The position numbers were made by a program, and so were the translations under genes. From a virus, in the IMG/VR virus record IMGVR_UViG_3300028883_000005, positions 18,576-82,575 of that record: 64,000 nt of DNA. One strand, written 5' to 3'. Under the pieces are notes generated by a model. The model was not told where the DNA came from and did no database searches. It saw only the letters and a list, made by a program, of their open reading frames with translations. Positions 2 through 34,492 of the stretch are shown here, one piece after another (position 1 is the stretch's first letter; the number at the start of each line of letters is the position of its first letter).

Positions 2-715
2 GATGGCCTTCCTTTAGATGAACTAGATATGCCTCCAGCATATAGCGAAAAGTACAATCACACCCCCTGCTCTGCATGTAGAGATAAAAAAGATGGAAAT
101 TTCATACCTGGTATTTGGTATGTCAAAAGGACTTCTCCTAAAATAGATTATTCTAATCTGACTTCTACTTTGAAATCGTTTGAAGAAAGTTTTGGAGATA
201 ATATACGGATAATTAGTTATCCTATGAATACTGCTAATATAAGCGATGTAAAAAGAGATTTGGATCTTCTAGAGTATACAGAAGGGTTCGTTCCTGATGG
301 CATTGTTTTGGACTATGCAGATATTTTAGGACCTGAAGATTCTAGATTGGTAGGAAGAGATAGCATCAACCAAACTTGGAAGATGCTGAAAAACCTAGCT
401 CAAGAGAGAAACTCTTTAGTAATCACGGCAACACAAAGCAATAGAGGTAGCATGGATAGAAGGAGGGTTAAGCCTACGGATACTAGTGAGGACATTCGAA
501 AGCTAGCCCATGTGAACTTAATGGTATCTCTTAATCAAACTCCTAGGGAAAAGAGAAGAGGATTAATGAGACTAGGAGTATCCGTAGCTCGTGGTGTGGA
601 ATTTGACGAGCTACAAGAGGTGCTTGTAGTTCAGGAACTTTCAATTGGTCAGCCCTTTTTAGATTCTGAAGTGCCTGGCTTTTTAGAAGATGAAGGAGAA
701 AATCATGAAGATTAG
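2..715 (+). CDS. DnaB-like replicative helicase, C-terminal part (5' end outside window)
   Basis: The frame is open from base 2, so this is the 3' part of a gene that begins upstream. The visible part has a RecA-fold Walker B-like stretch (GIVLDYADIL), then a helicase motif ending TATQSNRG and a late arginine-rich region, as in SF4/DnaB-family helicases that unwind DNA ahead of the fork. A CSAC pair sits near the visible start. The Walker A motif must lie upstream and cannot be checked. It overlaps queD by 11 bases, so it probably belongs to the same transcription unit. A RecA/KaiC-like ATPase is the alternative. Confidence 0.72.
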   Translation, partial: DGLPLDELDMPPAYSEKYNHTPCSACRDKKDGNFIPGIWYVKRTSPKIDYSNLTSTLKSFEESFGDNIRIISYPMNTANISDVKRDLDLLEYTEGFVPDGIVLDYADILGPEDSRLVGRDSINQTWKMLKNLAQERNSLVITATQSNRGSMDRRRVKPTDTSEDIRKLAHVNLMVSLNQTPREKRRGLMRLGVSVARGVEFDELQEVLVVQELSIGQPFLDSEVPGFLEDEGENHED

Positions 716-1073
716 TGTATGCAAAATATTTGAGTTTCACGCCGCACATCACCTCCCTCATTACTCTGGCAAATGTAGAGAGGTTCATGGTCATTCCTAC
801 ACACTTGAGATTGAGATAAGTGGAGAGGTGGGCGCTTGGACTGGAATGATATGCGACTTCTCTGAGCTTAAAAAGAAAGTTGAGGGTGCTATTATTTTCC
901 ATTTAGATCACAAAGATCTGAATATACTGATGGAAAACCCCACCGCCGAAAAAACTGTGGAGCTTATTGTGAGTAGGAAAAATCAGTATGTTCCAGACGG
1001 TGCAGAGCTAGAAAGGGTTCGTCTTTACGAGACCCGCACAAGTTTTGCAGAGTGGAGGAGGGAACAACAATGA
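705..1073 (+). CDS. queD: 6-carboxy-tetrahydropterin synthase
   Basis: QueD converts 7,8-dihydroneopterin triphosphate to 6-carboxy-tetrahydropterin, the second step toward 7-deazaguanines. The protein has 122 aa, the usual QueD size. The zinc histidines (H15 region and HGH at 28-30), the catalytic Cys24 just before the HGH, the Asp-His pair in HLDHKDLN (about 67-73) and a late Glu in LYET are all present. ATG at 705 follows an AAGGAG; an earlier in-frame ATG at 690 lacks one. The gene ends 4 bases inside queE, indicating translational coupling. Confidence 0.9.
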   Translation: MKISVCKIFEFHAAHHLPHYSGKCREVHGHSYTLEIEISGEVGAWTGMICDFSELKKKVEGAIIFHLDHKDLNILMENPTAEKTVELIVSRKNQYVPDGAELERVRLYETRTSFAEWRREQQ

Positions 1074-1753
1074 ACAGAGGTAAAACAGACTTTTGCTCAG
1101 CTCCTTTATGGGAGGTTTTCACTTCTATAGACGGTGAAGTGAACAATATAGGTCAAGGGGTTTTGAGTAAATTCATAAGAGTAGCAGGATGCAATCTCCA
1201 CTGCTCTTGGTGTGACACTAAAATAACGCAAACGGTTCCTAAAGAAGCTTCTTGGGAAAACTCTGCAAGTATGATGAGATCTGGTATTATAGGCAGAGAC
1301 CACGTTCAGAAATACACCATCACAGGGGGCGAGCCGCTTCTTTACCCAGAGTGGGTTAGAGAAGTGGTGAACACTCTAGTAGCTCTGGGTAAGAGCGTGT
1401 CTGTAGAAACAAACGGTTCTAGAGTTCTAGTACCAGGATTAGACTGCTGCTGGGTGATAGACGATAAGCCGCCTTCTTCAGGTCATCTGGGTAGTTTTGT
1501 ATACAGCAATTTGTGTACGATGAGAGAAGGAAGAGACTGGATTAAAATTGTAATAGCAACACAAGAAGATTTAGAATGGGCTATCGAGGAGACTAAATAT
1601 ATAAGTAGCAGGATTGGTAAGGCAAACATCGCTTGGAGCTTATCTGAAACTTGTGAGGTTGAAGCTAAACATATCATTAGCGTTTTACTGGAAGAAAGCC
1701 TGCATTATGTTAGAATTAATGCCCAGCTTCATAAGTACTTAGGATTATTGTAA
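1070..1753 (+). CDS. queE: 7-carboxy-7-deazaguanine synthase, radical SAM
   Basis: QueE converts the QueD product to 7-carboxy-7-deazaguanine (CDG) using a radical SAM [4Fe-4S] cluster. The cluster motif CNLHCSWCDT is at residues 41-50 (C41, C45, C48), and the family's FIR-x-AGCNL-x-C-x-WCDT context is intact. The TGGEPL motif of the SAM-binding site follows. The 227-aa length is typical. ATG 1070 has GGAGGAGG upstream; a GTG at 1052 is less likely. It is the last gene before a promoter-like region. Confidence 0.9.
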   Translation: MNRGKTDFCSAPLWEVFTSIDGEVNNIGQGVLSKFIRVAGCNLHCSWCDTKITQTVPKEASWENSASMMRSGIIGRDHVQKYTITGGEPLLYPEWVREVVNTLVALGKSVSVETNGSRVLVPGLDCCWVIDDKPPSSGHLGSFVYSNLCTMREGRDWIKIVIATQEDLEWAIEETKYISSRIGKANIAWSLSETCEVEAKHIISVLLEESLHYVRINAQLHKYLGLL

Positions 1754-1908: not shown

Positions 1909-2523
1909 ATGTTGAGCCCAGAATTCTGCAATGCAACATCCGTTCGGAAAGAGATTGGCGCGCTGAACAAGTGCGGCGTGCTGGCCGAAAAAGTGAAAGC
2001 TGTCGGAGTGGCCAAGAAGGAGTTGGTGGAGTCTTTCCTGAAGGCCGTGGAATCGGTTCCCGAGGGCACCGAGGAAGCCAAGAAGATCCCTGCTTCCGTC
2101 ATCAAGCTCTACAATGAAATCGTTGAAGGTGTTGATCCTTCGCCGGAAGAGCAGGAAAAGCTCAAGGCCGCCAAGACCAAGAAGAAGGACGCCAAGCCCC
2201 GCGGCCCCAGCAATGAAGCCAAAGCTCTGGAAATTTTCACCGAATCTTTCAAGGCCGGCCTGGACGACGCAGCAATCAAGGCCAAGATGACCGAGTACTT
2301 CAAACCGTACTATGAAGCTCGTGGAAAGGGGGATCAACCGGATTTCATCGAGAAGCGGGTGGGCATCTATACCAACATTGCCAAGAAGCAATACTTTGCC
2401 GCCCATCCCGACGAGGCTCCCAAAAAAGAGGAAAAGCCTCCGAAGAAGGAAACTGCCAAAAAGGATGCCGCCAAAGACGAGAAGGCCGCCACCGGCGAAG
2501 AGGAAGCGCCCACGGAGGGGTAG
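1909..2523 (+). CDS. Lysine/glutamate/alanine-rich protein of unknown function
   Basis: This 204-aa protein is not one I can name. The first 165 residues look helical; the last 40 are a low-complexity K/E/A/P tail similar in composition to histone H1-like tails. Codons end strongly in G or C, unlike the AT-rich neighbours, and resemble the capsid and SSB genes, suggesting high expression. A strong AAGGAGG sits before ATG 1909. It lies between queE and folE, so a role tied to modified DNA or DNA binding is possible but not shown. Confidence 0.6.
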   Translation: MLSPEFCNATSVRKEIGALNKCGVLAEKVKAVGVAKKELVESFLKAVESVPEGTEEAKKIPASVIKLYNEIVEGVDPSPEEQEKLKAAKTKKKDAKPRGPSNEAKALEIFTESFKAGLDDAAIKAKMTEYFKPYYEARGKGDQPDFIEKRVGIYTNIAKKQYFAAHPDEAPKKEEKPPKKETAKKDAAKDEKAATGEEEAPTEG

Positions 2524-2524
2524 A

Positions 2525-3115
2525 ATGGACCGGAGCCTAACTGAGCAATATCTTCAGAAGGCTTTAACTGAGGGGTTGGGGCTTGATATTAAAGACCCCA
2601 ACCTCTCAGGAACTCCTGGGCGCATCGCTAAGATGTGGACCCAGGAGTTTTTCTCCTCTTTAGAGCATCCTGAAGGTTTCGACAATCTCACTTCCTTTCC
2701 TAATGATAGGGAGTATGATCAAATAATCCTATTAGATAAGATCCATTTCGTTTCCATGTGTTCCCATCACTTTCTGCCCTTCGCTGGTATAGCTTGGTTA
2801 GGTTATATACCTAAAGGGCAACTCGCTGGAGCTTCAAAGCCTTCACGCCTGATTAACTTTTACTCCAAGAAACCGCAGCTTCAAGAACACCTCTCTCATG
2901 AGATTATCGATTGTTTCAATGAAAAGATAGAACCTCAAGGATGCATTGTTGTAATGCGTGGTATCCATGGCTGCATGAGTAATCGAGGGGCCCTCCAGTA
3001 TAATGGAAGTGGTATGACAACCTCCGCAGTTAGCGGTGTTTTCAGAGATGACAGCAAGGCTAGGTCTGAGGTTATGGACCTAATAAAAATATCCTTAATG
3101 ATCCACGAATTGTAA
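2525..3115 (+). CDS. folE: GTP cyclohydrolase I
   Basis: FolE makes 7,8-dihydroneopterin triphosphate from GTP, the entry step of 7-deazaguanine synthesis. The zinc and active-site motif SMCSHHFLPF is at about 77-86 (C79, H81/H82) and the third zinc cysteine is C150 in GCMSNRG. The 196-aa length fits the family core. ATG 2525 is one base after the previous stop and is preceded by GGAGGGG; longer in-frame starts overlap the upstream gene. With queD and queE it supplies CDG for DpdA. Confidence 0.9.
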   Translation: MDRSLTEQYLQKALTEGLGLDIKDPNLSGTPGRIAKMWTQEFFSSLEHPEGFDNLTSFPNDREYDQIILLDKIHFVSMCSHHFLPFAGIAWLGYIPKGQLAGASKPSRLINFYSKKPQLQEHLSHEIIDCFNEKIEPQGCIVVMRGIHGCMSNRGALQYNGSGMTTSAVSGVFRDDSKARSEVMDLIKISLMIHEL

Positions 3116-3138: not shown

Positions 3139-3489
3139 ATGGATAATAAAATCTACGCTCGAATCATCATTAATTTTCAATTTGAAGCTTTACACTCTTG
3201 GCCGGGGTGTTCTCTTTTGGACGTAAGTTTCCTTAAGAACGCCCATCGCCATGTTTTTCATGTAGAGATGAAAAAATTGGTGATGCATGACGATCGAGAT
3301 ATAGAATTTATACACTTCAAAAGAGAGGTTTTGAGGTGGGTGAGAGAGAACTGGGAAGAAAAAGATCTAGAATCTAAATCCTGCGAAATGATCGCTACCC
3401 ATCTTCTTCTCTTATTTGAATGTGACTATGTAAAAGTAATGGAGGACGGAGAAAATGGAGCAGAAGTCTTCAAGGATCATAATAATTGA
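3139..3489 (+). CDS. QueD-like protein lacking the catalytic cysteine
   Basis: The 116-aa protein resembles QueD/PTPS at its start: FQFEALHSW aligns with the FEFHAAHHL region and AHRHVF with the VHGHSY metal site, so two zinc-ligand positions remain. The catalytic Cys before the HxH is replaced (FLKNAHRH), and the LDHKDLN segment is absent. It therefore probably does not perform the QueD reaction. It may be a repurposed pterin or 7-deazaguanine binding protein in the same operon. The next gene starts 35 bases before its end. Confidence 0.6.
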   Translation: MDNKIYARIIINFQFEALHSWPGCSLLDVSFLKNAHRHVFHVEMKKLVMHDDRDIEFIHFKREVLRWVRENWEEKDLESKSCEMIATHLLLLFECDYVKVMEDGENGAEVFKDHNN

Positions 3490-4825
3490 TCCCACTTCAA
3501 CAGAGTTTAATCGAGGATCATTTTGTTATTTGCCTTACATCGTTTTTAGTTATTACAAGGATTATTGTGATGCAGAGCTTTGGGAGGACTTCACCGCCGC
3601 ACAAATTGACAACATCCCTCCTGAAGATGAAGTCTTGGTTGCTCTTTGGAGTTACCCTCAAGTAGACCTCTGCAAGACAATATATCGCTTCTCTGCCTCT
3701 AGGAAAATAAAGTTCTTCGGGTATACACCTCTGGTTAAGTGGGCGGGGCTGCCCTTAAAAGTTTTTACTCCCGCTCGTATTAAACAAGGAATCGTAAGTT
3801 ATGCTAATTATGTATCCCTGGGGGCTTTCTATCATATCCTTTTGTCAGATTGTGATATGCATCTTAATAAATATGATGGCATTGTGTACCCTTTGTTCTC
3901 TTCCTACGGGTGCCCTAGGAAATGCACCTTCTGCCCCTCTTGTGTAGCGAGCGAGCATAGAAGACTTTGCATTCATCTAGATGATGTAGAAATTATGCTC
4001 AGTACGATGTACAACAGAGGTATTAGGAATATCCATTTCACCGACGAAGACTTTTTTATGATTCACAAAAGAACTCATGAAGTCTTGAAAATTGCCAAAA
4101 GAATAGGTGATTTCAATTTTATAGCCCTGGCACATCTAGACACATTAAAAAAGTTTGTGGAGGAGTATGGACCAGAGTGTCTGAAAGAATTTGGAGTTAG
4201 ATTAGTAGAGTTAGGGTTTGAAACAGCCGATCCTGCTCTAGCTAAGTCCATGAAAAAAGGAAAGTCTCTCCAAGAGTACATCGATGTATACACCGCTGTA
4301 AAAGACTACACGGACATTTTCTGGTTGTGTCTAACTTTCTTTCCTGGGGAGACAATTACAACATTGAATGAAACAGGCAAGTTTCTTAGAGAATACGGAA
4401 GTAAGCCTGAAGATTTATACGATAGAATCAAAACAAACAGTACTGAAGGAGGACTAGGGCAGTTTTTTCAGCCTTACCCTGGGACTCCTGGATTTGAAGA
4501 CCTTCCTAGTTTAGGTCATCAAATCGAAGATAGACCTGTTCGCCTCATGCCTAGTTTCCTTCCTGATTCTTTTCTAAACGATGAAATAGAATGGGCATAT
4601 AAAGACGGATTTCGCAGCACAATACCTGATAAAGTGTGGGAATGGACGGAGGTTTATAATCTACCTACAGGAAAAATAATTAAATTTTTAGCATGGGTGC
4701 CCCAAAATGTTCGCCAAGCTATTTTAGATGCGAAGAACAATTGTCATCTTTCCGCAGGCGAGGCAGCAACTTTCATCGCAATCCTAGCGAGACTAGGAAT
4801 TATCAAAAGTGGGAGGAGATCATGA
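3455..4825 (+). CDS. Radical SAM enzyme, B12-binding-type architecture
   Basis: This 456-aa protein starts with a Rossmann-like region (IIIIDPT, about residues 6-110) like the cobalamin-binding domain of class B radical SAM enzymes. A radical SAM core follows, with CPRKCTFC (C153, C157, C160) and later strands VELGFETAD and LTFFPGET. Such enzymes carry out methylations or rearrangements at unreactive carbons. The substrate is unknown. Its place between 7-deazaguanine genes and a glycosyltransferase suggests further decoration of the modified base. Its stop overlaps the next start (ATGA). Confidence 0.75.
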   Translation: MEQKSSRIIIIDPTSTEFNRGSFCYLPYIVFSYYKDYCDAELWEDFTAAQIDNIPPEDEVLVALWSYPQVDLCKTIYRFSASRKIKFFGYTPLVKWAGLPLKVFTPARIKQGIVSYANYVSLGAFYHILLSDCDMHLNKYDGIVYPLFSSYGCPRKCTFCPSCVASEHRRLCIHLDDVEIMLSTMYNRGIRNIHFTDEDFFMIHKRTHEVLKIAKRIGDFNFIALAHLDTLKKFVEEYGPECLKEFGVRLVELGFETADPALAKSMKKGKSLQEYIDVYTAVKDYTDIFWLCLTFFPGETITTLNETGKFLREYGSKPEDLYDRIKTNSTEGGLGQFFQPYPGTPGFEDLPSLGHQIEDRPVRLMPSFLPDSFLNDEIEWAYKDGFRSTIPDKVWEWTEVYNLPTGKIIKFLAWVPQNVRQAILDAKNNCHLSAGEAATFIAILARLGIIKSGRRS

Positions 4826-5850
4826 AAATTATACTTGTTCCTATAGAGCCTTTTGAAGAGAGATATTCTATCCAGTGGTCTCGTTGGTTCAAAGAGAGCA
4901 TTTCAAATCTAGATATACCATACATAGAAATCTGCCCTGAGCCTCTTAAATCGTATAGAGAGACAGGTGCCTTTTTGGATGTTGTAGGAACCAACTACTT
5001 CAAGGCTACCCAACTTCAGATGATTTGTGATCTGATAGATCGTGGTGAGATTGAGAGTGGAGATGTTTTCTTGTTTCACGATCTTTGGTTCCCTGGTATC
5101 GAAATGCTCGCTTATATTAGAGACGGCATGGGTATGGATTTCAAAATCACAGGCTGTCTTCATGCAGGAACCTGGGATCCTTGGGATTTTCTAAGCCGAA
5201 GAAACATGGGGAGGTGGGGCACTTTACTTGAAGAGTCGTGGTTTAAGTTTATAGATGCTGTTTTTGTAGCCACAGAATTTCACAAAGAGATGATTCAGTC
5301 ATACTTTGATAGCCCGATACCAAGAATCTACACTACTGGGTTTCCTATTAAAAATGAAGAAGAGCTACCAAATACTGGTAAAAATCAAGTAGTGTTCCCT
5401 CACCGTCTAGATAAAGAAAAAAATCCTGATAGATTTGACAAATTAGAAAAAGCTTTCACTTCAGAATACCCTCTACCTAAGGTGACCTTCCTTAAAACCA
5501 AAGAAGCATGTACTACAAAGAAAGAATATTATGAGGTGCTGGCTAACTCTGTAGTTTCTGTTTCTTTTGCGAGTCAAGAAACTTGGGGAATCGCAATGAT
5601 AGAGAGTGTGCTATCTGGTTGTATACCATTTGTTCCTAATGAGCTAAGTTATGGAGAATTGTACCCTAAAGAGTTCAGATACGACTATGATTTTTCAGAT
5701 GATCACTCTTATTTCCTTCTAGCAAAGAGGATCCATGAGGCTCTTAGGAACACCGAGTACCAAAACATGGTTGAGGATCTGGGTAAAAAATTTATCCTCA
5801 AAGGGTCTTTAGCTATACCTAGAATGATAGAAATTATTATGGATTTGTAA
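4822..5850 (+). CDS. GT-B fold glycosyltransferase
   Basis: The 342-aa protein shows two Rossmann halves. The C-terminal half has the GT4-like donor-binding pattern SFASQETWGIAMIESVLSG (about residues 255-275), with the Glu that contacts the nucleotide sugar. ATG 4822 overlaps the stop of the radical SAM gene (ATGA) after GGGAGGAG, so the two are translationally coupled. The context suggests the acceptor is the modified base or its precursor; a cell-surface or virion acceptor is the alternative. No signal peptide or membrane segment is visible. Confidence 0.72.
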   Translation: MKIILVPIEPFEERYSIQWSRWFKESISNLDIPYIEICPEPLKSYRETGAFLDVVGTNYFKATQLQMICDLIDRGEIESGDVFLFHDLWFPGIEMLAYIRDGMGMDFKITGCLHAGTWDPWDFLSRRNMGRWGTLLEESWFKFIDAVFVATEFHKEMIQSYFDSPIPRIYTTGFPIKNEEELPNTGKNQVVFPHRLDKEKNPDRFDKLEKAFTSEYPLPKVTFLKTKEACTTKKEYYEVLANSVVSVSFASQETWGIAMIESVLSGCIPFVPNELSYGELYPKEFRYDYDFSDDHSYFLLAKRIHEALRNTEYQNMVEDLGKKFILKGSLAIPRMIEIIMDL

Positions 5851-7493: not shown

Positions 7494-8471
7494 ATGGAAA
7501 TGACCTTGTTTGTAGATTCAGGTGCTCCCAGTCTTTATAATCAATTTATACGCCGAAACAAAGGCGGTACTTATATGGGAAGCTTTCTTGAAGATAGGAA
7601 AAACGATGACTTCAGCTGGATCCAAAGCAAGGATTTCCAAACCTACCGAAGGAACTATGCTCTTTTTATCAAGAAAAATCTTCAGTTTATTGATTATTAT
7701 GCAAATTTTGATGTGATTAATAATGCAGAAGCAACCTGGTCAAATCAGCAATACTACGAGTCTAAAGGATTGAAACCAATACCTGTTTGGCATTATGGAA
7801 CAGATATGAAGTGGCTGGAAATGTATTTGGAAAAAGGATATGACTATATCGCTATAGGGGGTCTGATACCTAACCCGCCTAGAATCTTGCTTCCTGCATT
7901 AGACTCTATATGGGGCTCTCTTCTCACAGACTCTTCAGGAATGCCTAAAGTAAAAGTTCACGGATTTGCTGTAACTTCTACGAGACTAATTGCCCGCTAC
8001 CCCTGGTTTAGTGTAGATTCCTCTTCTTGGGTAAAATTCGGACAATATGGAGTGATATGTGTCCCTCCTAAAAGAGGGGGAAAGTTTGATTATTCTACCA
8101 CAGCTCATAATATTTTTGTATCCACAAGATCGCCCTCCCAAGAAATTACAGGAAAGCACTATTACACACTGTCAGGCGCAGAGCAAGCAATGATTGATCA
8201 ATACTTGGACCTTAAAGGTCATGTGATGGGTAAATCAGAATTTAAAATGGTAGGTTCAGAATACGAACTTAAAGAAGATGAGGTTTTTGTCAGTGGAAGA
8301 AAGGGAGATGAGGAAAGAAGGGTGGAGATTATATTAGAGAGAGGCGTATGCAACGATTATAAGCTCAGGGACGAGCTTAATGTTCAATATTATATAGATT
8401 TGCAGAACAGTGTTCCGGAATGGCCTTGGGCTTTTCAAATTAATCAGAAGAAAGGATTCTTTGAAATATGA
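7494..8471 (+). CDS. dpdA: DpdA-like DNA 7-deazaguanine transglycosylase
   Basis: DpdA exchanges guanine in DNA for a 7-deazaguanine base; it is related to tRNA-guanine transglycosylase. The 325-aa protein shows the TIM-barrel landmarks of phage-type DpdA: FVDSG (6-10), NFDVI (71-75), HYGTD (100-104), IAIGGL (119-124), HGFAV (156-160) and SVDSSSW (173-179). It has its own promoter candidate at 7429. Together with folE, queD and queE it indicates that phage DNA carries a 7-deazaguanine. The named family is an inference from these motifs. Confidence 0.8.
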   Translation: MEMTLFVDSGAPSLYNQFIRRNKGGTYMGSFLEDRKNDDFSWIQSKDFQTYRRNYALFIKKNLQFIDYYANFDVINNAEATWSNQQYYESKGLKPIPVWHYGTDMKWLEMYLEKGYDYIAIGGLIPNPPRILLPALDSIWGSLLTDSSGMPKVKVHGFAVTSTRLIARYPWFSVDSSSWVKFGQYGVICVPPKRGGKFDYSTTAHNIFVSTRSPSQEITGKHYYTLSGAEQAMIDQYLDLKGHVMGKSEFKMVGSEYELKEDEVFVSGRKGDEERRVEIILERGVCNDYKLRDELNVQYYIDLQNSVPEWPWAFQINQKKGFFEI

Positions 8472-11893: not shown

Positions 11894-12324
11894 AAGTTTT
11901 CCTGGCAGGAGTTCCCGCAGGCAATCAAGCTGTTAGGGAGCATCACTTAAAAGCGATGGGTGCCAATAATCGCCTAACTACCTTTTACTATTTGAGGCAG
12001 GCAAAAATAACTATGAAAAAATATAAAGGTCCAGGTAAGGTGGTTCATTGCAAACGGGAACAATTTGATGTTTATATAGGTAGAACAAATACCATGCATC
12101 ATTACGGAAACCCCTTTGTAGTGGGCACTCACGGAGATGCTTTTAAATGTGTATCTAATTATAGAAGATGGCTAACTACAAATGCATACCCACACTTAGA
12201 ACCAGAGAGGAAAGCCTGGATACTATCTAGGGTCAAAACCCTCAAAAACAAAAGGCTGGGCTGCTTCTGTACTAAGCCGCCCTGTCACGGATTTATTCTT
12301 TTAGAGTTGGCGGAGAAGTCATAA
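11890..12324 (+). CDS. MKVFLAG-family N-terminus fused to a DUF4326 domain (paralog 3)
   Basis: Residues 1-38 carry the MKVFLAG start and NRLTTFYYLRQ motif shared with three other short proteins here. Residues about 50-140 match the DUF4326 pattern: YIGR, GNPF, a YRRWL helix, and LGCFCTKPPCHG near the end. DUF4326 proteins are common in phages and have no established activity. The fusion shows that the short module can travel with a second domain. Start and stop overlap neighbours by four bases and one base. Confidence 0.65.
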   Translation: MKVFLAGVPAGNQAVREHHLKAMGANNRLTTFYYLRQAKITMKKYKGPGKVVHCKREQFDVYIGRTNTMHHYGNPFVVGTHGDAFKCVSNYRRWLTTNAYPHLEPERKAWILSRVKTLKNKRLGCFCTKPPCHGFILLELAEKS

Positions 12325-15008
12325 TGGCACTTAAAGGTTTTTTCCAAATAGAATCTACTGAACCTAGAAGGAATGCTAATAAAGAGCTTTTGGATAAAAG
12401 ATATAACCATCCTGGCGATCCGGATTGCTCTAGCTGTGGATTAGATAAAAAAGGATGCAAAAGGCCCAGGATACCTGTAACAGGAAATGGTAGAAGAAAC
12501 ATTCTAGGGATAGCAGAAGCTCCTGGGGCCACCGAAGACACACTAGGGAAGAATTTAGTGGGGGAGGCTGGTCAGTTTCTGGAAAAAAGTCTTAAACCTC
12601 TTGGGATTGATCTTCATAGAGACCTTTACTTAATAAATTCTGTAAATTGCCGTCCTCCTGAGAATAGAAAGCCTACAGATCATGAGTGCCTGTGTTGTCG
12701 TCCTTTATTGCTTAAAACCATCGAAGAGATAAAACCAGATCATATATGGTTATTTGGAGGAACTTCGGTAAGTACTTACATTAGAGATAGATTCAAAAAC
12801 ACAACAATCAGCAGATGGGTAAATTTACCCTTCCCTGACCCTGAAAATGGAGCTTGGGTTACTGCTCAATATCATCCTTCTTTTGTGATGAGAGGAAAAA
12901 ACGATAATCTCAGAGCTATAAACCAGATATATCTCAAAAAAGCAGTAGGCCGTCTATCTTGGAATCCTTACGAGTTTCCTGACTTTGACAGTCAGGTTAC
13001 TATTTTATTAGAATTTAAAAAAATAATCTTCCATCTTAAAAGGATACTTAGAACTAAGCCTTCGATAACTATTGATTATGAATCCACAGGTGTGAAGCCA
13101 TATAAGATTGGTCATAAGATCTATTGTGTAAGTATAGATGATGGAGATCAAAGCTATGTGATTCCTTTGCAAAGGCCTGGGTATTGGAAAGAGGAAGAAT
13201 GGTCAGAAATTCATCGTTTATATGTAGAAATTTTGGAAGATCCTAAAATATTAAAAACAGCTCAAGGTAGAAATTTCGAGGACTCCTGGTCATCTGTTGT
13301 TTTAGGTGCAGATGTTAAAGGTTGGGATTGGTGCACTATGACAGCCTCACATCTTATAGATAGCAGAGAGAAATTCACAGGTCTGAAATTTCAAGCTTTC
13401 TTAAGATTTGGAATAACAGGTTATGAGGAAGAGATTGCACCATATCTGAAGTCGGATAAAGGAGAGGAATTTAACAATATTCATAATGCCCCTCCCGAAA
13501 AGCTACATCACTATTGTGGACTAGATACAGTAAATACCAGAGAGCTGAAAAAATGGCAAAAATCCTTTTTTGATAGGCACCCAAAACTCGAAGCTGCCAG
13601 ACAATTCACGATGGATGGTTTGGAAGCTCTAATGAGTGTGCAAAATGAAGGAATCGTAGCAGACAGGGCTTATTACGACGAGCAAAATGCTTTTCTAGGG
13701 GATGAGATAGAAAAATTAACATTACAGATTTATCAGTCTAAGGAGGCAGAAAAGTTTAAAAAGAGAACAGGAAAGTCCTTTAACTATAAATCTTCTCAAG
13801 ACTTACAAATTCTGTTTTTTGATATTTTAGGGTATACACCAAAAAAGTTCACCAATAAAGATGAAACCAATGCATCGGTAGATGCTGAAGTTGTGAGTTC
13901 TATTAATTCACCTATAGCTAAAAAAATTCTTCGTGTAAAGAAGCTCTACAAAGTAAAAAACACCTACTTGGCACAATTCTTCAGGGAAATTACTGAAGAG
14001 GGCAAGATACACCCTGTTCAGAATCTTCATATAGCTACCACACATAGAGGATCTCAAGATCATCCTAATTTTCAAAACATACCAGTTCGAGATGAGGAGT
14101 CTAAAAAGGTGTGCAGATCTGGTATCGTTGCTTCTTTAGACCCTGAAGAGCCTGTTAGGCTAGGAGAAAAAGATTATGGGTCTCAAGAAGTTAGGATAAT
14201 TGCTTGTTACTCTGAGGACCCTGTTTTAATAGATTATATTAATGATCCTACTACGAACATGCATCGAGATGAGGCGGCGGCCTTATTTATCCTACCTGAA
14301 GAAAGAGTAAGCAAAGATATCAGATTTTATGCCAAAAACTGTTGGGTGTTCCCTCAATTTTATAAAAGCTGGTATGGAAGTTGTGCTAAGGATTTACAAA
14401 AGAACGTTATCATTCCTAATTTAAAAACAGCAGACGGTGAAAAGATACAGGACCACCTTAAGTCTAAAGGAATTTATACAGAGCAGTCTTTCGAGAATCA
14501 TTGTAAAAGGATGGAGAGTGCTTTCTGGGACAAATACAAAGGTGTAAAGAAATGGCAAGATAAAACAATTAAAAAATATCTAGAGCAGGGGTACGTGGGG
14601 ACTTTCTTTGGTCATAGAAGAACAGGTTTCTTGTCCCCTAACGAGATTGTGAATAGCCCTATTCAGGGCACAGCATTCCACTGTTTGCTTTGGACGTTAA
14701 AGAAAGTTAAAGATAGAATTAAGGATTTAGGCTTCCGTAGCCGACCTAACAATCAAATACATGACTCCATTAAAAGCAAAATATATGTTGAAGAGCAAAA
14801 CGAATATATCCAAATGGTAAAAACAATTGCCGAAGATGAAATCAGAGAGCAAAATGGTTGGTTAATTGTACCACTACTATTAGAAATAGAGTTATGTCCT
14901 ATAGGAGGAAACTGGTATCAGAAAGAGGAAGTGTTTTTTGAAGGCGGCACATGGGTAAGTAAAAACAAGGACGGTAGCATTAAGAACGTATACGATGAAA
15001 ATTTCTAA
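12324..15008 (+). CDS. DNA polymerase A with N-terminal uracil-DNA-glycosylase-like domain
   Basis: This 894-aa replicative polymerase has three parts. Residues about 30-205 look like a family 4-type uracil-DNA glycosylase: CSSCGL with C45 (Fe-S ligands), AEAPGATED at 64-72 and YHPSF at 183-187. Next is a 3'-5' exonuclease with IDYESTG (D251, E253), a central N-x-x-D motif in GRNFEDSW and YCGLDTVNT. The polymerase has motif A KDYGSQEVR (about 615), motif B R-x3-K with an unusual NCWVFPQFY continuation, and motif C QIHDSI, where HDE is usual. The UDG-polymerase fusion resembles what I recall of SPO1-type polymerases. Confidence 0.85.
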   Translation: MALKGFFQIESTEPRRNANKELLDKRYNHPGDPDCSSCGLDKKGCKRPRIPVTGNGRRNILGIAEAPGATEDTLGKNLVGEAGQFLEKSLKPLGIDLHRDLYLINSVNCRPPENRKPTDHECLCCRPLLLKTIEEIKPDHIWLFGGTSVSTYIRDRFKNTTISRWVNLPFPDPENGAWVTAQYHPSFVMRGKNDNLRAINQIYLKKAVGRLSWNPYEFPDFDSQVTILLEFKKIIFHLKRILRTKPSITIDYESTGVKPYKIGHKIYCVSIDDGDQSYVIPLQRPGYWKEEEWSEIHRLYVEILEDPKILKTAQGRNFEDSWSSVVLGADVKGWDWCTMTASHLIDSREKFTGLKFQAFLRFGITGYEEEIAPYLKSDKGEEFNNIHNAPPEKLHHYCGLDTVNTRELKKWQKSFFDRHPKLEAARQFTMDGLEALMSVQNEGIVADRAYYDEQNAFLGDEIEKLTLQIYQSKEAEKFKKRTGKSFNYKSSQDLQILFFDILGYTPKKFTNKDETNASVDAEVVSSINSPIAKKILRVKKLYKVKNTYLAQFFREITEEGKIHPVQNLHIATTHRGSQDHPNFQNIPVRDEESKKVCRSGIVASLDPEEPVRLGEKDYGSQEVRIIACYSEDPVLIDYINDPTTNMHRDEAAALFILPEERVSKDIRFYAKNCWVFPQFYKSWYGSCAKDLQKNVIIPNLKTADGEKIQDHLKSKGIYTEQSFENHCKRMESAFWDKYKGVKKWQDKTIKKYLEQGYVGTFFGHRRTGFLSPNEIVNSPIQGTAFHCLLWTLKKVKDRIKDLGFRSRPNNQIHDSIKSKIYVEEQNEYIQMVKTIAEDEIREQNGWLIVPLLLEIELCPIGGNWYQKEEVFFEGGTWVSKNKDGSIKNVYDENF

Positions 15009-25351: not shown

Positions 25352-26457
25352 TGCCTTATTTGAGCAGCTTAACTTTTATCAATATCCAATCTCATAAAGA
25401 GACAATCCTACCTCTTTCTGAAGGCTTGAATATAATCAAAGGATCCTCCCACAAAGGTAAATCAGCGCTCATAAGAGGTATCAGATTGTTGCTTTTCAAT
25501 GAGCCTCTGGCTCCACAAGATAAAATAAAATCTTGGTTTTCTAGAGATAATGAGGAGCTATCCGTAACGGCAGAGTTTTCTGATGGTTCCTACGTGATCC
25601 GTACTCATAGCAAATCCTTCAATGGTTACATAGTGGGGAATGAAGATGGGGAGGGGGAGTTCGAAGCTTTAAGAGGTGACGTTCCTGAAGAAGTTAAAAA
25701 AGCATTAAATTTAGATAGAATAAACTTCAGAGGCCAACATGATGGTTATTTCATGTTATCTTCTAAATCTGGTGAAGTTGGAAAATTGTTCAATCAGGTG
25801 GCTGGTCTGAGCGTAATAGACTTTGTTTTAGGTAACGTCAATTCTATGTCTAGAGAGACAAGCTGGAAGCTAGAATTAGCTAAAAAGGAAGTGGCTAAAG
25901 CAAAAGGTAAAATAGAGTCTCTATTATACGCTAGAGAGGTAGAACCTAGGATTAAAGCTTTGGAGAGAAGGATAAACAGATGCTCTGCACTCACAGAGAA
26001 TTTATCTGTGATGAAATCTGTTAAGAGCAGTATAAATCTCCAAGAGGAAATAATCAAAAGATCTAAAGAAAAAATATCTTTCAAATCCAAACTTCTGCTG
26101 CTAAAGTCTAAAATTGAAGAGTTTAAGACCTTAAATGGAGAGTATATATACCTTAAAAGCATAGATAGCACTATCAAAAGAGAAGAAAGAGCACACAAAG
26201 AAACCTCAGAGTGGTTGAAAGTAAAAACTAAAGCGGTCAAATTAAGAGCTAAAATCGAAGAGTACAAAACCATCGACGAAAAAAGAAAAGAACTTTCAAA
26301 CATATACAACAGCATTACTAGTGCAAACTTACTGCAGAATTCGCTGTCAGAACGCTTAGAACAGCTAAAGGAAAAGCGAAAAGCACTACATAAGCAGCTT
26401 AATTATTGTCCGCGCTGCGGAGCACACAAGAGTCATTGGGATGATAAACGAGTTTAA
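25351..26457 (+). CDS. SbcC/Rad50-like N-terminal half ending at a zinc hook
   Basis: The 368-aa protein has the N-terminal lobe of an SbcC/Rad50/T4 gp46 ATPase: Walker A GSSHKGKS (31-38) and a Q-loop-like INFRGQHDGYF (about 128-138). A coiled coil covers about 165-350, and CPRCG at 353-357 is a zinc hook motif near the C-terminus. It ends 11 residues after the hook, so signature, Walker B and H-loop are absent. They are found in the gene at 28314. ATG 25351 is chosen because the frame from 25306 overlaps the preceding gene. Confidence 0.82.
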   Translation: MPYLSSLTFINIQSHKETILPLSEGLNIIKGSSHKGKSALIRGIRLLLFNEPLAPQDKIKSWFSRDNEELSVTAEFSDGSYVIRTHSKSFNGYIVGNEDGEGEFEALRGDVPEEVKKALNLDRINFRGQHDGYFMLSSKSGEVGKLFNQVAGLSVIDFVLGNVNSMSRETSWKLELAKKEVAKAKGKIESLLYAREVEPRIKALERRINRCSALTENLSVMKSVKSSINLQEEIIKRSKEKISFKSKLLLLKSKIEEFKTLNGEYIYLKSIDSTIKREERAHKETSEWLKVKTKAVKLRAKIEEYKTIDEKRKELSNIYNSITSANLLQNSLSERLEQLKEKRKALHKQLNYCPRCGAHKSHWDDKRV

Positions 26458-26881
26458 AGGTAAATATCGGTTTTTAAGCAACTTTAGCTCTGCTCCTATT
26501 AAAGTAGGAAATAGAGAGTACCCTACCGTGGAGCATTATTATCAAGCAATGAAGACTGATTCTTATCTAGAACAAGAATCTATAAGACTTTGCTCGTCTC
26601 CGGCTTTAGCTAAAAAACTAGGTAGAGAAGTTAAGATTAGAAAAGACTGGGAAGAGATAAAAATAATTGTAATGCTGAGGGCTTTGAGATTAAAATTTGA
26701 AAATCCTACCCTAAGAGAAAAGCTGTTAAGTACAGGAGATCAACTTTTGGTAGAGGGCAACTGGTGGCACGATACTTATTGGGGTAGATGTAGATGTAGG
26801 ATATGTGAAGGCCATGGAGAGAATAAATTAGGGTGGCTTTTAATGAAAGTAAGAAAGGAGATTAAAAATGGGAAAGAGTAA
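26441..26881 (+). CDS. NADAR-family protein (YbiA-like)
   Basis: The 146-aa protein has the NADAR pattern: YRFLSNFSSAP near the start, YPTVEHYYQAMK, VEGNWWHDTYWG, then GENKLGWLLMKVR. NADAR proteins are N-glycosidases; some remove ADP-ribose from guanine in DNA or RNA as partners of DarT1-type toxins. CRCRICEG is inserted before the last motif and may bind metal. In a phage, protection against ADP-ribosylating defence or NAD-derived metabolites is plausible. It starts 17 bases inside the sbcC-like gene. Confidence 0.8.
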   Translation: MINEFKGKYRFLSNFSSAPIKVGNREYPTVEHYYQAMKTDSYLEQESIRLCSSPALAKKLGREVKIRKDWEEIKIIVMLRALRLKFENPTLREKLLSTGDQLLVEGNWWHDTYWGRCRCRICEGHGENKLGWLLMKVRKEIKNGKE

Positions 26882-29366: not shown

Positions 29367-29702
29367 ATGACATCCATCGTTTGTTTTTTAGTGAGGGGGT
29401 TAGGCCATATTATAGGTGAGGACGGAGGAAAGGCCCACCACAAAGTTAATATTAGATATCCAGGTCTGGTGATACCAGTAAATTCCGAAGGCAGAGAGGC
29501 CTACTATCTGCAGTCTATTATACCTGGCTTTATGAAAGACCCCTCCACCATCGCACGATCCTTCAATGTACCTGCTGAGGATATAATTATGAAAGGAGAT
29601 ATAGATCCAGATATGGAAAATTTGTACATCTCATGGAAAGCAGAGCAAATCCGAAAATGGTCGGGTCTTATAATTTCAGGAGGTCCTAAGCGGGCACAGT
29701 AG
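29367..29702 (+). CDS. Protein of unknown function, last gene of the + strand block
   Basis: The 111-aa protein starts after TAGGAGG. It contains GLGHIIGEDGGKAHHKV near the N-terminus and no recognised family. Its last 17 bases overlap the convergent glycosyltransferase gene on the other strand, and no terminator hairpin separates the two blocks. Confidence 0.5.
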   Translation: MTSIVCFLVRGLGHIIGEDGGKAHHKVNIRYPGLVIPVNSEGREAYYLQSIIPGFMKDPSTIARSFNVPAEDIIMKGDIDPDMENLYISWKAEQIRKWSGLIISGGPKRAQ

Positions 29703-30636
29703 ATTCATCTATCAACCCTTTAGAGGCAGCTTTTTGCATCCATTCATTAATTGTCATCACTTGCCTAGATTCAATAAGCTGCCTCTGTTTCCACCCTTTC
29801 TTTAAAACATCATTCATAATATCATCTAGCACGTTTGGTCTACCTTTAGCGATATTCCTAAAAGATTTAAGAACCTCCACTCCACCAAAAAGATAATGAG
29901 CTAAAAATCTATTTCTAAGAGAATCATCGTAGTTACTACTATATCCTCTTTTTTCACCATGATGGGCGAGACTCCCTTTATTCCAAATCCATTTTTTCTT
30001 CCCCAAGACTGCCAGTGTGTAATTCATAAAGTGCTCTCCACCAGAGTAAATTCCGAACTCAGGATTCCACCCTCCTGTAAGATCATAAATAGATTTATGA
30101 ATCATCATACCACAAGTTGACATACAAGGCACCTCATAAGGAGTATCAGATTCTCTATACCCTGTAAATCTGTAATCAAAGAAAGCCCCTTTATCCAAGA
30201 GAAATTTGTAAATAAGTTTATGCGGTTCTAGAACCTTATAGTTAATAGGGAGATGAATAGTTCCATCTAATTCTTCCCAATTTTCTTTATAGTATTTAAA
30301 CATAGAATAAATAGAGTCTCTGGTAGGAACAACATGAGAATCACAAAAGAGTAGAAATTTTCCAGAGCTTTTACTAATGCCCATCCTTTTAGCGTTCCAA
30401 TGAGAAAGTTTGGTTTTGTACTCTACATATCTAAGCCAAGAACAAACACCAGCACCTGCTCTGACAGCCTCTCCGGATTTATCCTCAGATCTATCCACAT
30501 AGCCGTCGGCATAGTTATCTACAGCAATGATCTCAAAATCAACTCTTCCTAACAGCTCCTCTGCTATACTGCGAATTGTAAATATCACTTGAGGATACTC
30601 ATTCACGAATGGGATTATAATAGATAGTTCTGCCAT
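29686..30636 (-). CDS. GT2-family glycosyltransferase
   Basis: The 316-aa protein has a GT-A fold start (ELSIIIPFVNEYPQV), the nucleotide-sugar Asp region IIAVDNYADG and FCDSHVVP, where DSH replaces the DXD motif. GGWNPEFGIYSGGEHF fits the catalytic loop of GT2 enzymes. It stands apart from the main glycan operon, separated by repeat element copy B, and is the last - strand gene before the convergent junction. The acceptor is unknown. Confidence 0.8.
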   Translation of the reverse strand: MAELSIIIPFVNEYPQVIFTIRSIAEELLGRVDFEIIAVDNYADGYVDRSEDKSGEAVRAGAGVCSWLRYVEYKTKLSHWNAKRMGISKSSGKFLLFCDSHVVPTRDSIYSMFKYYKENWEELDGTIHLPINYKVLEPHKLIYKFLLDKGAFFDYRFTGYRESDTPYEVPCMSTCGMMIHKSIYDLTGGWNPEFGIYSGGEHFMNYTLAVLGKKKWIWNKGSLAHHGEKRGYSSNYDDSLRNRFLAHYLFGGVEVLKSFRNIAKGRPNVLDDIMNDVLKKGWKQRQLIESRQVMTINEWMQKAASKGLIDESTVPA

Positions 30637-30671
30637 TTCCTTTAGTCCTTATTTATTGTTTAATTTCACAA

Positions 30672-30750
30672 GCTTACAGTAAATTTTAAGACGGGCTCTA
30701 AGCATGAATTCTGCACGATTTTTAGTGTCTTAATGCATTAGTATGCATTA
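30672..30750. repeat. Dispersed repeat element, copy B
   Basis: GGGCTCTAAGC (30693-30703) and GAATTCTGCACGA (30706-30718) are followed after 13 bases by TAATGCAT-TAGT-ATGCATTA (30731-30750), a perfect 8-bp inverted repeat. On the - strand this reads as a leader 36-114 bases upstream of the GT2 gene at 30636. It occupies most of the gap between two glycan genes. Confidence 0.8.
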
Positions 30751-30759
30751 AATTTATAC

Positions 30760-31428
30760 CTATAAGCGATAACCATATTTATAAGCTACCTTCTTCAATT
30801 GAAGGGCTAGCCTTTTGTTTTCAGATTTCAGATCTTCAAAGGTTAATTCCGGATTAAATATTTTTCTTTTAGGGGTAGTGTGAACTTTTTGGCCTAGACT
30901 TTGTATTTTTTGATACATTTCTTCAGAATATTTTAGATTCACTCCCTTGCAGAACTTATTTACTTTACCTTTATATTTAAAATCCTCAACCTTAATTGTA
31001 TAATCAAAATTATAATTCTTTTTACATTCCCTATTCCAAATTATCCACCAAATTAAAACATAAGAAGGAGTTCCTGACAAGTGGTTGTATTGAGGAAAGC
31101 CTCTTCTAAAAATATCTAACCCAGATCTTTTTCGGGTTAAATCTATATTATACATCGAAGAGATAACCTTAACAGGATTCCTGACTAGATGAATATACTT
31201 CACATCATGACCTGCCATAATTTTATGGGTAGCTCTAGATCTATCTTTTTCACCTAAATACCAAGAACAGATGCCATTTTTGTTGAACCCTTCATGACCC
31301 ACCTTATAACCTAAAATCTCAAAAACCTTAGTCATATAAAGGGTTCCGCTTCTTCCGCACCCAACCACCACAAACTTTTTAACTTTAGGGTCTTTAGATA
31401 GCTTATTTAGATTAGGTATCATCCTCAT
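30760..31428 (-). CDS. Sulfotransferase-like protein
   Basis: The 222-aa protein has VVVGCGRSGT (about 20-29), the 5'-phosphosulfate loop of PAPS-dependent sulfotransferases, and YIHLVRNPVKVISSMYN (about 78-94), the 3'-phosphate binding motif. These enzymes transfer sulfate from PAPS to sugars or other acceptors. It is the last gene of the overlapped glycan operon, so a sulfated glycan is likely. It overlaps the upstream gene by ATGA. Phage sulfotransferases are uncommon. Confidence 0.72.
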   Translation of the reverse strand: MRMIPNLNKLSKDPKVKKFVVVGCGRSGTLYMTKVFEILGYKVGHEGFNKNGICSWYLGEKDRSRATHKIMAGHDVKYIHLVRNPVKVISSMYNIDLTRKRSGLDIFRRGFPQYNHLSGTPSYVLIWWIIWNRECKKNYNFDYTIKVEDFKYKGKVNKFCKGVNLKYSEEMYQKIQSLGQKVHTTPKRKIFNPELTFEDLKSENKRLALQLKKVAYKYGYRL

Positions 31429-32081
31429 GGTACCTTACTCATCTCCCTTCTGTATATTTCTTTCTCTTTGTTCATTAAATATCTAATTTCCATATTAGAT
31501 CTTAAGGTTTCCCCTACTTTATGAGTGATTGGATTATATAAATCTTTAAACCAAAAGTATTTATTCCTCTTGGTAAAGTTCCAAATCCAATCGTCTCCGC
31601 AAAAGAACTTTAAAGAGGACGGAATATGTGGTATTTTCTTCACCAAAGAGTTTCTAATCGTAAAAGCCCATCCTTCTCTTTTCTTCATTCCCTTAATCTT
31701 AACTTCAGGTGTTACGGTAGATAAAGCGGACTTTGAGGTGACATTAGGGCAAATAACCCCTGCTCTGGATCTTATATTAAAGCATTTTTCTATCTTATAG
31801 AAAAATAAAGGTGTGATTTCTATATCATCGTTCAAGATTGAAAGATGATTTCCTTCTTTACACTTTCTAAGTCCATAATTCCAAGCGGGGTTCACTCCTA
31901 CATTTTTCTTGGGTGTTACTATTTTAACAGGGTATTCATAAGCCCTAGAGAAATTTAAAGCTTTCTCTGAGTTATTAATTACAGTTACCCTATAAGGTAA
32001 GGTTTCGTTTTTGTTTATCTGGGACAGAACAGCTAGGACTAGGTCTTCATTCATAGTAGGTATTAGAACTTCTATGCTCAT
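31425..32081 (-). CDS. GT2-like glycosyltransferase
   Basis: The 218-aa protein starts IEVLIPTMNED and has TPKKNVGVNPAWNYG and LNDDIE, the typical GT2 acceptor/donor region with a DD-x-E version of the DXD motif. It is shorter than typical GT2 enzymes and may hold only the catalytic domain. Its start codon overlaps the stop of the upstream gene and its stop overlaps the sulfotransferase start. Confidence 0.72.
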   Translation of the reverse strand: MSIEVLIPTMNEDLVLAVLSQINKNETLPYRVTVINNSEKALNFSRAYEYPVKIVTPKKNVGVNPAWNYGLRKCKEGNHLSILNDDIEITPLFFYKIEKCFNIRSRAGVICPNVTSKSALSTVTPEVKIKGMKKREGWAFTIRNSLVKKIPHIPSSLKFFCGDDWIWNFTKRNKYFWFKDLYNPITHKVGETLRSNMEIRYLMNKEKEIYRREMSKVP

Positions 32082-32812
32082 TATATCTTTTCCCAGCAGG
32101 TGAAGTGTTGAGGGTTTCCAGACTTACGCCATCCATTTTCTTCCATCCATTTTCTTCCTATATCTTCTAAACAAGGAGGTGCCTCCTGGGGGTGGTAAAT
32201 TCCAAACCTCCATTGATTTAAATAATCACCCATCCATCTTCCTTTTATTTGTTTCTCAGGATTATGAACAGGATCTATTCTAGCTATAGCCCCTTTAGCA
32301 AAAGCTGTCCTGTTTAGAGAAGGATGACCACACCACCCTGCAGCACCTTTATCTGCTTGAGGGCACTCAAAAAACTTACCGTTCCATAAAAAGAAATGCT
32401 TCCAATTCTTTAAGTGTTCTGAAGTAGATCTAAATTTACTCAATCTCAGATGAGCTAGAGTTATATTATCCTCCATTATTTCAATCATTTCATTGAAATC
32501 TAGTTTTCTTTTTAAGAGCCAATCTTCTTCTAAATGAAATAAATAAGGAGCCCTAGCTAAATTCCATACGGTTAGGAAGGCTTTAGGAAAAAAAGCTCTA
32601 CTAGGGCGAGTGGCTTTGATCTCTTTGAAATATTTAGAACATACCCTAATAACATCCTTATAGCGGTTATTTTCAGATCCTACAGGGTCTATATTAATTA
32701 CCAATCTTAGATCACCTGAAAACCCTGAGAATAGGTTTTCAAAAAAAGACTCTAAAGTTCTATCGATTAGCTCTGGTCTCCAGGTGGCGGTCATAGTGAC
32801 ATCTACTTTCAT
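32081..32812 (-). CDS. Glycosyltransferase, GT-A type
   Basis: The 243-aa protein has a GT-A-like start (VDVTMTATWRPELIDRTLESF) and LFHLEEDWLL, a metal-binding acidic motif equivalent to DXD. The second half is aromatic-rich. Overlaps at both ends couple it to the glycan operon. The sugar and acceptor cannot be read from sequence. Confidence 0.65.
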   Translation of the reverse strand: MKVDVTMTATWRPELIDRTLESFFENLFSGFSGDLRLVINIDPVGSENNRYKDVIRVCSKYFKEIKATRPSRAFFPKAFLTVWNLARAPYLFHLEEDWLLKRKLDFNEMIEIMEDNITLAHLRLSKFRSTSEHLKNWKHFFLWNGKFFECPQADKGAAGWCGHPSLNRTAFAKGAIARIDPVHNPEKQIKGRWMGDYLNQWRFGIYHPQEAPPCLEDIGRKWMEENGWRKSGNPQHFTCWEKI

Positions 32813-33396
32813 TTCTTCACCTTTTCAAATATTGCTGCATTTTTATGGAAAGCCTCTATTCCTGGCTTAAGAGCCCAAGGACTTAAATACTTTTTGAATA
32901 AATTTGTAAGAACAGGTCTGTACTCATATCCTTTATTTCTAAACTTTTCTATCCAGTACTCCAAAGGTTGGCAATTTACATGATAATGGCCCTTTTGACC
33001 AGGAGGTGCGGCGGAAAGGATTAGTTTATCAGACAATTTAATCAAATTGTCTACTAAAATATCAGAGTACTCCTTCTCTATATGCTCCATTACTTCTAAG
33101 CAAGAGCAGAGGTCCATGCGGAGGAGGCCTTCTAGAGGCTCTCTCAGGTCTCGTATTAGAATATTATCTGTCATTCTAAATTCCCAACAATGAGTGCTGC
33201 CTTCAATTCCCCAAGAATAGTGACCTCTGCGGCCCATTTCAAACACCAAATCTCCAGTAGCACACCCTACATCTATATAAGAGAAAATATCTGGGTATAA
33301 TTTCTCGAAGGCGTCTGCTACATGGAGTGCTCTCCAATTGAACTTATACCTTCTGGTAAAGAAAGCCCGTTTATAAATATCCACCAAAGGCTTCAT
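32809..33396 (-). CDS. SAM-dependent methyltransferase
   Basis: The 195-aa class I methyltransferase has motif I YIDVGCATGDLVFEM, an acidic strand end GIEGS, and CLEVMEHIEKE as motif IV region. In a glycan operon it probably methylates a sugar, perhaps as a chain-terminating cap. It starts 26 bases inside the upstream glycosyltransferase gene and overlaps the next by four. Confidence 0.75.
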   Translation of the reverse strand: MKPLVDIYKRAFFTRRYKFNWRALHVADAFEKLYPDIFSYIDVGCATGDLVFEMGRRGHYSWGIEGSTHCWEFRMTDNILIRDLREPLEGLLRMDLCSCLEVMEHIEKEYSDILVDNLIKLSDKLILSAAPPGQKGHYHVNCQPLEYWIEKFRNKGYEYRPVLTNLFKKYLSPWALKPGIEAFHKNAAIFEKVKK

Positions 33397-34492
33397 TGCT
33401 ATACCTCTCTTTGATAAAATCCAGAGAAGGTGCTGATTCTCCGAAACTAGAAAACAATCTGCCCATCGTAGGAATTAAATAATCCGACCCTGATGTCTTA
33501 TTATACCAACTGGTGGCTTTGTTACGATCTTTAGGACTGTAATGCTTTAGAATGTCTCTAAACAAACGGGCTACGGAACCGAAATCGTCTTTATTTTTGG
33601 GAACGGTACAATACTTTCCATAAGTGATATAAGGAGAATGATAAGCAGGTGTTCCTATGATTAATTGACAGCCGCATCTTAAGGCTTCAATAGGTCCTCT
33701 ATCGTTTTGGCCTGAAGTGCCTAAATGAACGAACACTTTAGAAGAGTTGAGAATTACATTTAGATCTGATCTAGGAACCATACCAGGCATGTCAACACCA
33801 AGGTCTTTGGCTAAACCCAAAATTTTGTTTGTTTGGGTGCTATGACGAACAGCCCCAGGCATTATACATTTAGGAATTTTACCGTATATTTTTTTGTACT
33901 CCTCTAGAGCTCGAATTGTTCTCCACTGACCTTTTCTATCGTGTATAAAACTAGCACCTATGCAAAAGTCATATATAGGATTAGATTCTGGTATGAATCT
34001 AAATATTTCTTCGTGAACTGGTTTAGAGAAAGGGAACCAGAGTCTGTTTTCTGTATCTATTCTCAGTTCCAAATCTAAATCGTCTAAAATAGCATCCCAC
34101 CAGGGCCATCTTTGTCTTCCTGTGTTAGCTGCATAAAGAACTAACCAGTGCTTTCCCTTCTTAGAGGCTAACCAATCATGCCAACCTCTAAAGCCCCCTC
34201 GAACAAACAAAACATCTCCTTTTCTTAGAACTTTATCTACTTCGGAGATGTGGGGCACTACAAACCCTAAATTACCATTGAGTTTGAATCTTCCGCATCC
34301 TCTAGAAGATTCTATTATCAAAAGCATATCTTTAATGAATCCTTTAGCCTTCATTTCTTTTAGCATCCAGTAAAGGCCTTCGGACTCTAAGCCACCGTTG
34401 TCTAGATACTTATTTTGGGCAGTAGCTTTGGGATTCCAAGTAGGAATATCATTAGTTCCACCGGTGGTCATAAACAAAAACACTACTCTCAT
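33371..34492 (-). CDS. GT-B fold glycosyltransferase
   Basis: The 373-aa protein has an N-terminal MRVVFLFMTTGGT Rossmann start and a C-terminal GPIEALRCGCQLIIGTP, the GT4 donor-binding Glu motif. ATG 34492 overlaps the upstream stop (ATGA) with AAAGGA eight bases before it; an ATG at 34501 is too close to that site. Substrate unknown. Confidence 0.75.
   Translation of the reverse strand: MRVVFLFMTTGGTNDIPTWNPKATAQNKYLDNGGLESEGLYWMLKEMKAKGFIKDMLLIIESSRGCGRFKLNGNLGFVVPHISEVDKVLRKGDVLFVRGGFRGWHDWLASKKGKHWLVLYAANTGRQRWPWWDAILDDLDLELRIDTENRLWFPFSKPVHEEIFRFIPESNPIYDFCIGASFIHDRKGQWRTIRALEEYKKIYGKIPKCIMPGAVRHSTQTNKILGLAKDLGVDMPGMVPRSDLNVILNSSKVFVHLGTSGQNDRGPIEALRCGCQLIIGTPAYHSPYITYGKYCTVPKNKDDFGSVARLFRDILKHYSPKDRNKATSWYNKTSGSDYLIPTMGRLFSSFGESAPSLDFIKERYSNEAFGGYL

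Follow-up and report, generated by a model that had tools for sequence, protein, structure and literature searches.

The phage pathways described for 7-deazaguanine bases in DNA (dPreQ0, dADG, dG+ and dPreQ1), known from phages such as 9g and CAjan, run through FolE, QueD, QueE, QueC and DpdA (PMC6884629). Glycosylation of a DNA base is described for the T4 alpha- and beta-glucosyltransferases and the TET-associated glycosyltransferases, which act on 5-hydroxymethylcytosine (PMC13216743). Here we analyze an operon in a 64,000-nucleotide stretch of viral DNA (the window; positions 18576-82575 of the 82.6-kb IMG/VR virus record IMGVR_UViG_3300028883_000005), in which a radical SAM enzyme (rSAM) and a glycosyltransferase (GT) follow genes of 7-deazaguanine synthesis. 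A preliminary description had suggested from the gene order that the product is a hypermodified, possibly alkylated and glycosylated, 7-deazaguanine. Sequence comparisons and structure models suggest that the operon is an alternative, QueC-less viral 7-deazaguanine branch, which probably yields a glycosylated 7-deazaguanine in DNA.

The cassette and its genes

The gene order at the locus is DnaB-like helicase, QueD, QueE, a Lys-rich protein, FolE, PTPS2, rSAM and GT, with DpdA further downstream. On their profile matches, FolE, QueD and QueE are members of the cassette.

705..1073, plus strand: QueD (6-carboxytetrahydropterin synthase); Pfam PTPS 1.1e-29, TIGR03367 1.3e-24
1070..1753, plus strand: QueE (7-carboxy-7-deazaguanine synthase); PHROG_2076 9.1e-30, TIGR03963 4.3e-30, CX3CX2C present
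1909..2523, plus strand: Lys/Glu-rich protein of no assigned function; recurs between QueE and FolE
2525..3115, plus strand: FolE (GTP cyclohydrolase I); Pfam 3.1e-47
3139..3489, plus strand: PTPS2 (PHROG_17812), probable QueD paralogue; hhalign to QueD, residue counts, mutual exclusion with QueC
3455..4825, plus strand, 456 aa: rSAM with AprD4/TsrM-like architecture; Pfam Radical_SAM 8.3e-13, AlphaFold2 and Foldseek
4822..5850, plus strand, 342 aa: predicted GT-B glycosyltransferase (GT); AlphaFold2, Foldseek, retaining GT4 signature
7494..8471, plus strand: DpdA (DNA guanine transglycosylase); PHROG_887 6.6e-36, conserved motifs

The rSAM and GT reading frames (3455-4825 and 4822-5850) do overlap by ATGA behind the 7-deazaguanine genes, as first described; the junction reads AGATCATGAAAATT and the overlap is genuine, while a longer GT frame from 4693 was rejected as an artefact caused by an in-frame ATG upstream. 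The rSAM start overlaps the end of PTPS2 by 35 nt. In the window's QueD the catalytic Cys24, the zinc-binding His15/28/30, Asp68 and Glu109 are all present and invariant across 26 sequences. The HGFAxT and (Y/F)PWxSVDS motifs of DpdA are conserved, and the NCBIfam DpdA model gave only 0.074.

Relatives of the Lys/Glu-rich protein lie at most ~5.5 kb from GT in 14 loci of related viruses, and the GC content of its gene is visibly above that of the neighbouring genes. At 12324-15008 a family-A DNA polymerase is encoded, the N-terminal part of which looks uracil-DNA-glycosylase-like; many related viruses have a relative of the polymerase behind the cassette.

GT and its coupling to the cassette

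The AlphaFold2 model of GT, built from 31 family members, shows a GT-B fold (predicted local distance difference test, pLDDT, 93.9), and a Foldseek search of the PDB gave 162 matches at E<=0.001, with MshA, GlgM and BshA at the top (2.7e-11 for MshA and 2.9e-10 for BshA). The catalytic signature, consisting of R195 and K200 (the phosphate-binding R/K pair) and E253-x7-E261, is invariant in the 31 sequences. Against Pfam Glycos_transf_1 the window protein scored 18.4 bits (curated cut-off 26.4), and 25 of the 31 members matched at E<=0.01. By signature and modelled fold, GT is an MshA/BshA-like GT-B enzyme with a retaining GT4 signature, in line with the GT-B assignment made earlier from the letters alone. 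A GalE-family gene adjoins GT in three viral contigs (L150, L154 and L155, with L154 over the curated GalE cut-off) and points to a UDP-hexose donor. The GT cassettes of jumbo-phage-like viruses repeatedly contain a phosphoribosyltransferase (L048:14330-14761, L051:5075-5545, L150:11188-11658, L153, L154 and L155), which hints at a nucleotide-level step.

IMG/VR holds 354 relatives of GT and 32 of rSAM, each family at roughly 30-50% identity and with dozens of invariant residues, which shows that both are genuine genes. The best 80 of the 354 GT relatives gave 67 non-redundant ones, 49 of which had flanks of 3.5 kb or more on either side. Within 3.5 kb of GT in these 49 loci we found PTPS2 in 47, DpdA in 43, FolE in 40 and QueE in 36, with at least two cassette genes in 48. 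When rSAM served as the anchor, GT was present in 32/32 loci. The pair thus clearly does not lie mostly apart from 7-deazaguanine genes, an outcome that would have spoken against the preliminary description, and its proximity to them, read at first from gene order in one operon, holds widely. By contrast, a control GT4 of the same window (34489-35820) had 10 relatives, none of them near a cassette (0/10). The control belongs to a minus-strand cluster (29686-35820) that holds several further glycosyltransferases, one sulfotransferase-like protein and one methyltransferase-like protein.

Among cultured viruses, GT occurs in the 7-deazaguanine cassettes of the Pseudomonas phages Paride, Deifobo, PA5oct and relatives, as well as in those of Acidovorax ACP17, Sinorhizobium Phosso, Xanthomonas X1 and Synechococcus BUCT-ZZ01; QueE and PTPS2 adjoin it in the Paride/PA5oct group and in the latter four. 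Xanthomonas PhiXhv-15 carries a more distant relative beside Gat-QueC and a PIG-L-type deacetylase. A search of 84,980 bacterial and archaeal genomes found only 13 GT loci, several of them beside PTPS2. We are highly confident that both GT and rSAM are part of the 7-deazaguanine pathway. A role of GT as an ordinary surface-polysaccharide or tail enzyme was rejected on the genomic context and the control GT.

PTPS2 and a probable QueC-less branch

PTPS2 aligns to QueD (hhalign probability 93.6%) and keeps the zinc triad H19, H36 and H38 together with two Glu, all invariant in 37/37 sequences; the positions that match the catalytic Cys24 and Asp68 of QueD are not conserved. Judged by these residues, PTPS2 is probably a zinc-binding QueD paralogue without the QueD catalytic residues.

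In 46 non-redundant DpdA-anchored loci with flanks, chosen independently of GT, QueC was found in 28, PTPS2 in 15, neither in 3 and both in 0 (Fisher p = 1.6e-9, a value that is overstated because the DpdA tree has only 2-3 QueC/PTPS2 changes). All 15 PTPS2 loci contained GT, and an AprD4-like rSAM was present in 12/15 of them and in 0/28 QueC loci. GT matches occurred in only 2/28 QueC loci, both distant (~100 bits vs ~400). QueC (PF06508) was found neither in the window's record (G000) nor in 14 related viral records, and the positive control matched in 12/14 genomes. The presence of PTPS2 in place of QueC is a feature that the preliminary description did not contain. The pattern suggests that PTPS2+GT, with or without rSAM, forms an alternative branch leading on from 7-carboxy-7-deazaguanine (CDG).

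PTPS2 is also found without GT, beside FolE, in Cellulophaga phiST, Rhizobium RHph_I1_18 and Vibrio D479, and likewise in Ahp1 and MA9V-3; a scan with the phiST PTPS2 returned no relatives. As PTPS2 occurs in QueC-less cassettes with or without GT, we infer that it marks the QueC-less branch and that GT is an added step. PHROG_20335, which lies downstream of PTPS2 in GT-less cassettes (L182:7783-8559, L185:7683-8537 and L186:7782-8573), is a candidate for an alternative DpdA or a tailoring enzyme.

The GT-less cassettes also suggest that PTPS2 alone yields a usable product, and phages do glycosylate proteins. Both points would suit an explanation in which GT glycosylates a target other than the base but connected with modified DNA, be it a host factor or a protein of the virion or nucleoid, the DNA base being a simple one such as dCDG or dDG made via FolE-QueD-QueE-PTPS2-DpdA. 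However, GT is nearly confined to PTPS2/DpdA cassettes, in siphovirus-size as well as jumbo viruses and across several host genera. Such tight tracking of a base-synthesis enzyme would be unexpected for a protein-targeting GT, and another GT of this virus shows no such tracking. We therefore regard a target other than the base as unlikely.

The radical SAM enzyme and its slot

Single-sequence scans for relatives of rSAM and DpdA were empty, and alignment-based searches succeeded; in INPHARED no rSAM relative was found. The CX3CX2C motif of rSAM is intact, with C153, C157 and C160 invariant in 20/20 members. Its AlphaFold2 model (pLDDT 89.8) has an N-terminal region of alternating strand/helix and matched AprD4 (1.1e-14), TsrM (9e-12), MgmA and CysS in Foldseek over most of its length. 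AprD4 is also the best PDB sequence match, and among NCBIfam models the PhpK P-methyltransferase comes nearest. AprD4 is a non-cobalamin member of this group. The label 'B12-type' given to rSAM earlier reflects its relatedness to AprD4, TsrM, CysS and PhpK, which does not prove cobalamin use; a Pfam search found a B12-binding domain in none of 20 members. A role of rSAM as a QueE substitute was rejected, QueE being present as well.

The 49 GT loci comprised 19 with an AprD4-like rSAM, 12 with a SPASM-domain rSAM, 18 with neither and 0 with both, and on the GT tree these three states switch several times. GT, not rSAM, is the constant part of the cassette, a point that likewise goes beyond the preliminary description. 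By sequence class, rSAM looks like an optional tailoring slot filled by two unrelated rSAM classes. Since the AprD4-like rSAM is missing or swapped for a SPASM rSAM in 30/49 GT loci, the GT acceptor would be independent of it.

Of the two modifications originally put forward, glycosylation as a reading is well supported by the GT signature and the coupling; alkylation is not, as most GT loci have no AprD4-like rSAM and the nearest structure, AprD4, is a sugar diol-dehydratase. That rSAM alkylates, rather than edits otherwise, is accordingly a tentative suggestion. It competes with an equally tentative one, in which rSAM deoxygenates, dehydrates or epimerises the attached sugar and which touches the alkylation claim only. 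AprD4, the closest structure, is a radical SAM 1,2-diol dehydratase of an aminosugar, rSAM nearly always adjoins GT, and the lack of a B12-binding domain match fits as well. However, AprD4, TsrM, MgmA and CysS are about equally distant, so that the fold cannot tell the reaction, and PhpK as the nearest NCBIfam model speaks for a methyltransferase.

Proposed pathway

Gene content, conserved coupling, QueC exclusion, active-site signatures and predicted folds were seen directly. A GT-B enzyme with an intact retaining GT4 signature makes a glycosylated 7-deazaguanine the natural reading, and it is rather likely, as far as signature and model go, that GT glycosylates the 7-deazaguanine. FolE, QueD and QueE would produce CDG, and PTPS2, in place of QueC, would act on CDG or a near derivative. 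GT would add a sugar to the 7-deazaguanine with retention, probably from a UDP-sugar, and DpdA would put the base in place of guanine in DNA, either ahead of glycosylation or following it. rSAM would optionally tailor the C7 substituent of the base or the attached sugar. In this scheme the substrates of PTPS2 and GT, the step order, the sugar, its linkage and the rSAM reaction are those that we infer.

The transglycosylase also bears on whether the pathway might serve tRNA, placing a glycosylated, queuosine-like 7-deazaguanine in the tRNA of host or virus instead of in DNA. Galactosyl- and mannosyl-queuosine are known in animal tRNA (PMC12518689). Yet the enzyme here belongs to the DpdA type known from phages (PHROG_887) and is below every tRNA-guanine transglycosylase cut-off, no tRNA gene was found in the window, and the cassettes are placed among DNA replication genes. 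A tRNA function is thus very improbable.

Several observations weigh against a QueC-independent route to a glycosylated base in DNA. Some GT relatives have no cassette genes nearby (L152 and the bacterial L162, L163 and L170). The QueC/PTPS2 exclusion is phylogenetically clustered, its 2-3 changes on the DpdA tree being few independent events. The IMG/VR records may lack parts of their genomes, and preQ0 could still come from the QueC of the host. Finally, if PTPS2 turns CDG into plain 7-deazaguanine by decarboxylation, there is no obvious O/N acceptor at C7 for GT.

The last point depends on what PTPS2 does. Cui et al. in 2023 reportedly described dDG and dCDG together with DpdL, DpdM and DpdN, some phages keeping and others decarboxylating CDG, and the CDG decarboxylase is said to be named DpdL. 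We know of no glycosyltransferase, extra radical SAM enzyme or glycosylated derivative in that work. PTPS2 may be DpdL. If so, the GT acceptor may be C7 itself or a later-added group, and if PTPS2 removes the carboxyl group, GT might form a C-glycoside at C7.

In its widest form, the proposal is that guanine replacement by a glycosylated 7-deazaguanine, made via CDG, PTPS2 and GT independently of QueC and alkylated or edited by interchangeable rSAMs, is widespread; we consider the case for this evenly balanced. If true, it would explain what large families of viral proteins, at present annotated as hypothetical, do, and protection of the DNA against restriction, perhaps also against CRISPR nucleases, would be expected. 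Because GT is present in the well-studied cultured phages Paride, PA5oct and ACP17, the reading is directly testable.

Other features of the window

Three structural-region proteins on the minus strand (54107-54751, 56245-56934 and 57710-59065) have Thr-rich tails at their ends that are similar to one another (STTTTTTSTTTTTTAP type) and resemble tails for O-glycosylation or decoration. The product of 26441-26881 resembles the NADAR-family (YbiA-like) proteins, which are often tied to ADP-ribosylation defence or counter-defence.

Comparison with known systems

Like the dPreQ0-type pathways, the cassette encodes FolE, QueD, QueE and DpdA together; unlike them, it has PTPS2, GT and rSAM where QueC was not found in the window's record. 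We found no description of a sugar-bearing 7-deazaguanine in DNA, the 7-deazaguanine DNA bases found described carrying small groups, namely cyano, amide, amidine or aminomethyl. Methyl- and formyl-preQ1, carboxy and unsubstituted forms are further known bases. Among the enzymes, MshA and BshA share the retaining GT4 class with GT and are its best fold matches, but they use small-molecule acceptors (inositol phosphate and malate) and have ~13% identity to it. AprD4, TsrM and CysS resemble rSAM in overall architecture by Foldseek and in CX3CX2C, whereas their identity to it is only 12-15%.

In animal tRNA, QTMAN/GTDC1 and QTGAL glycosylate queuosine and so, likened by description only, also decorate a 7-deazaguanine nucleoside; they differ in being eukaryotic, in acting on tRNA and in using the queuosine cyclopentene diol as acceptor. 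The T4 and TET-associated glycosyltransferases are, like GT as read here, phage enzymes that glycosylate a DNA base, but their substrate is 5-hydroxymethylcytosine, and GT is closest to the MshA/BshA GT4 folds. If our reading is true, the T4 glucosyl-cytosine strategy would be extended to the guanine position.
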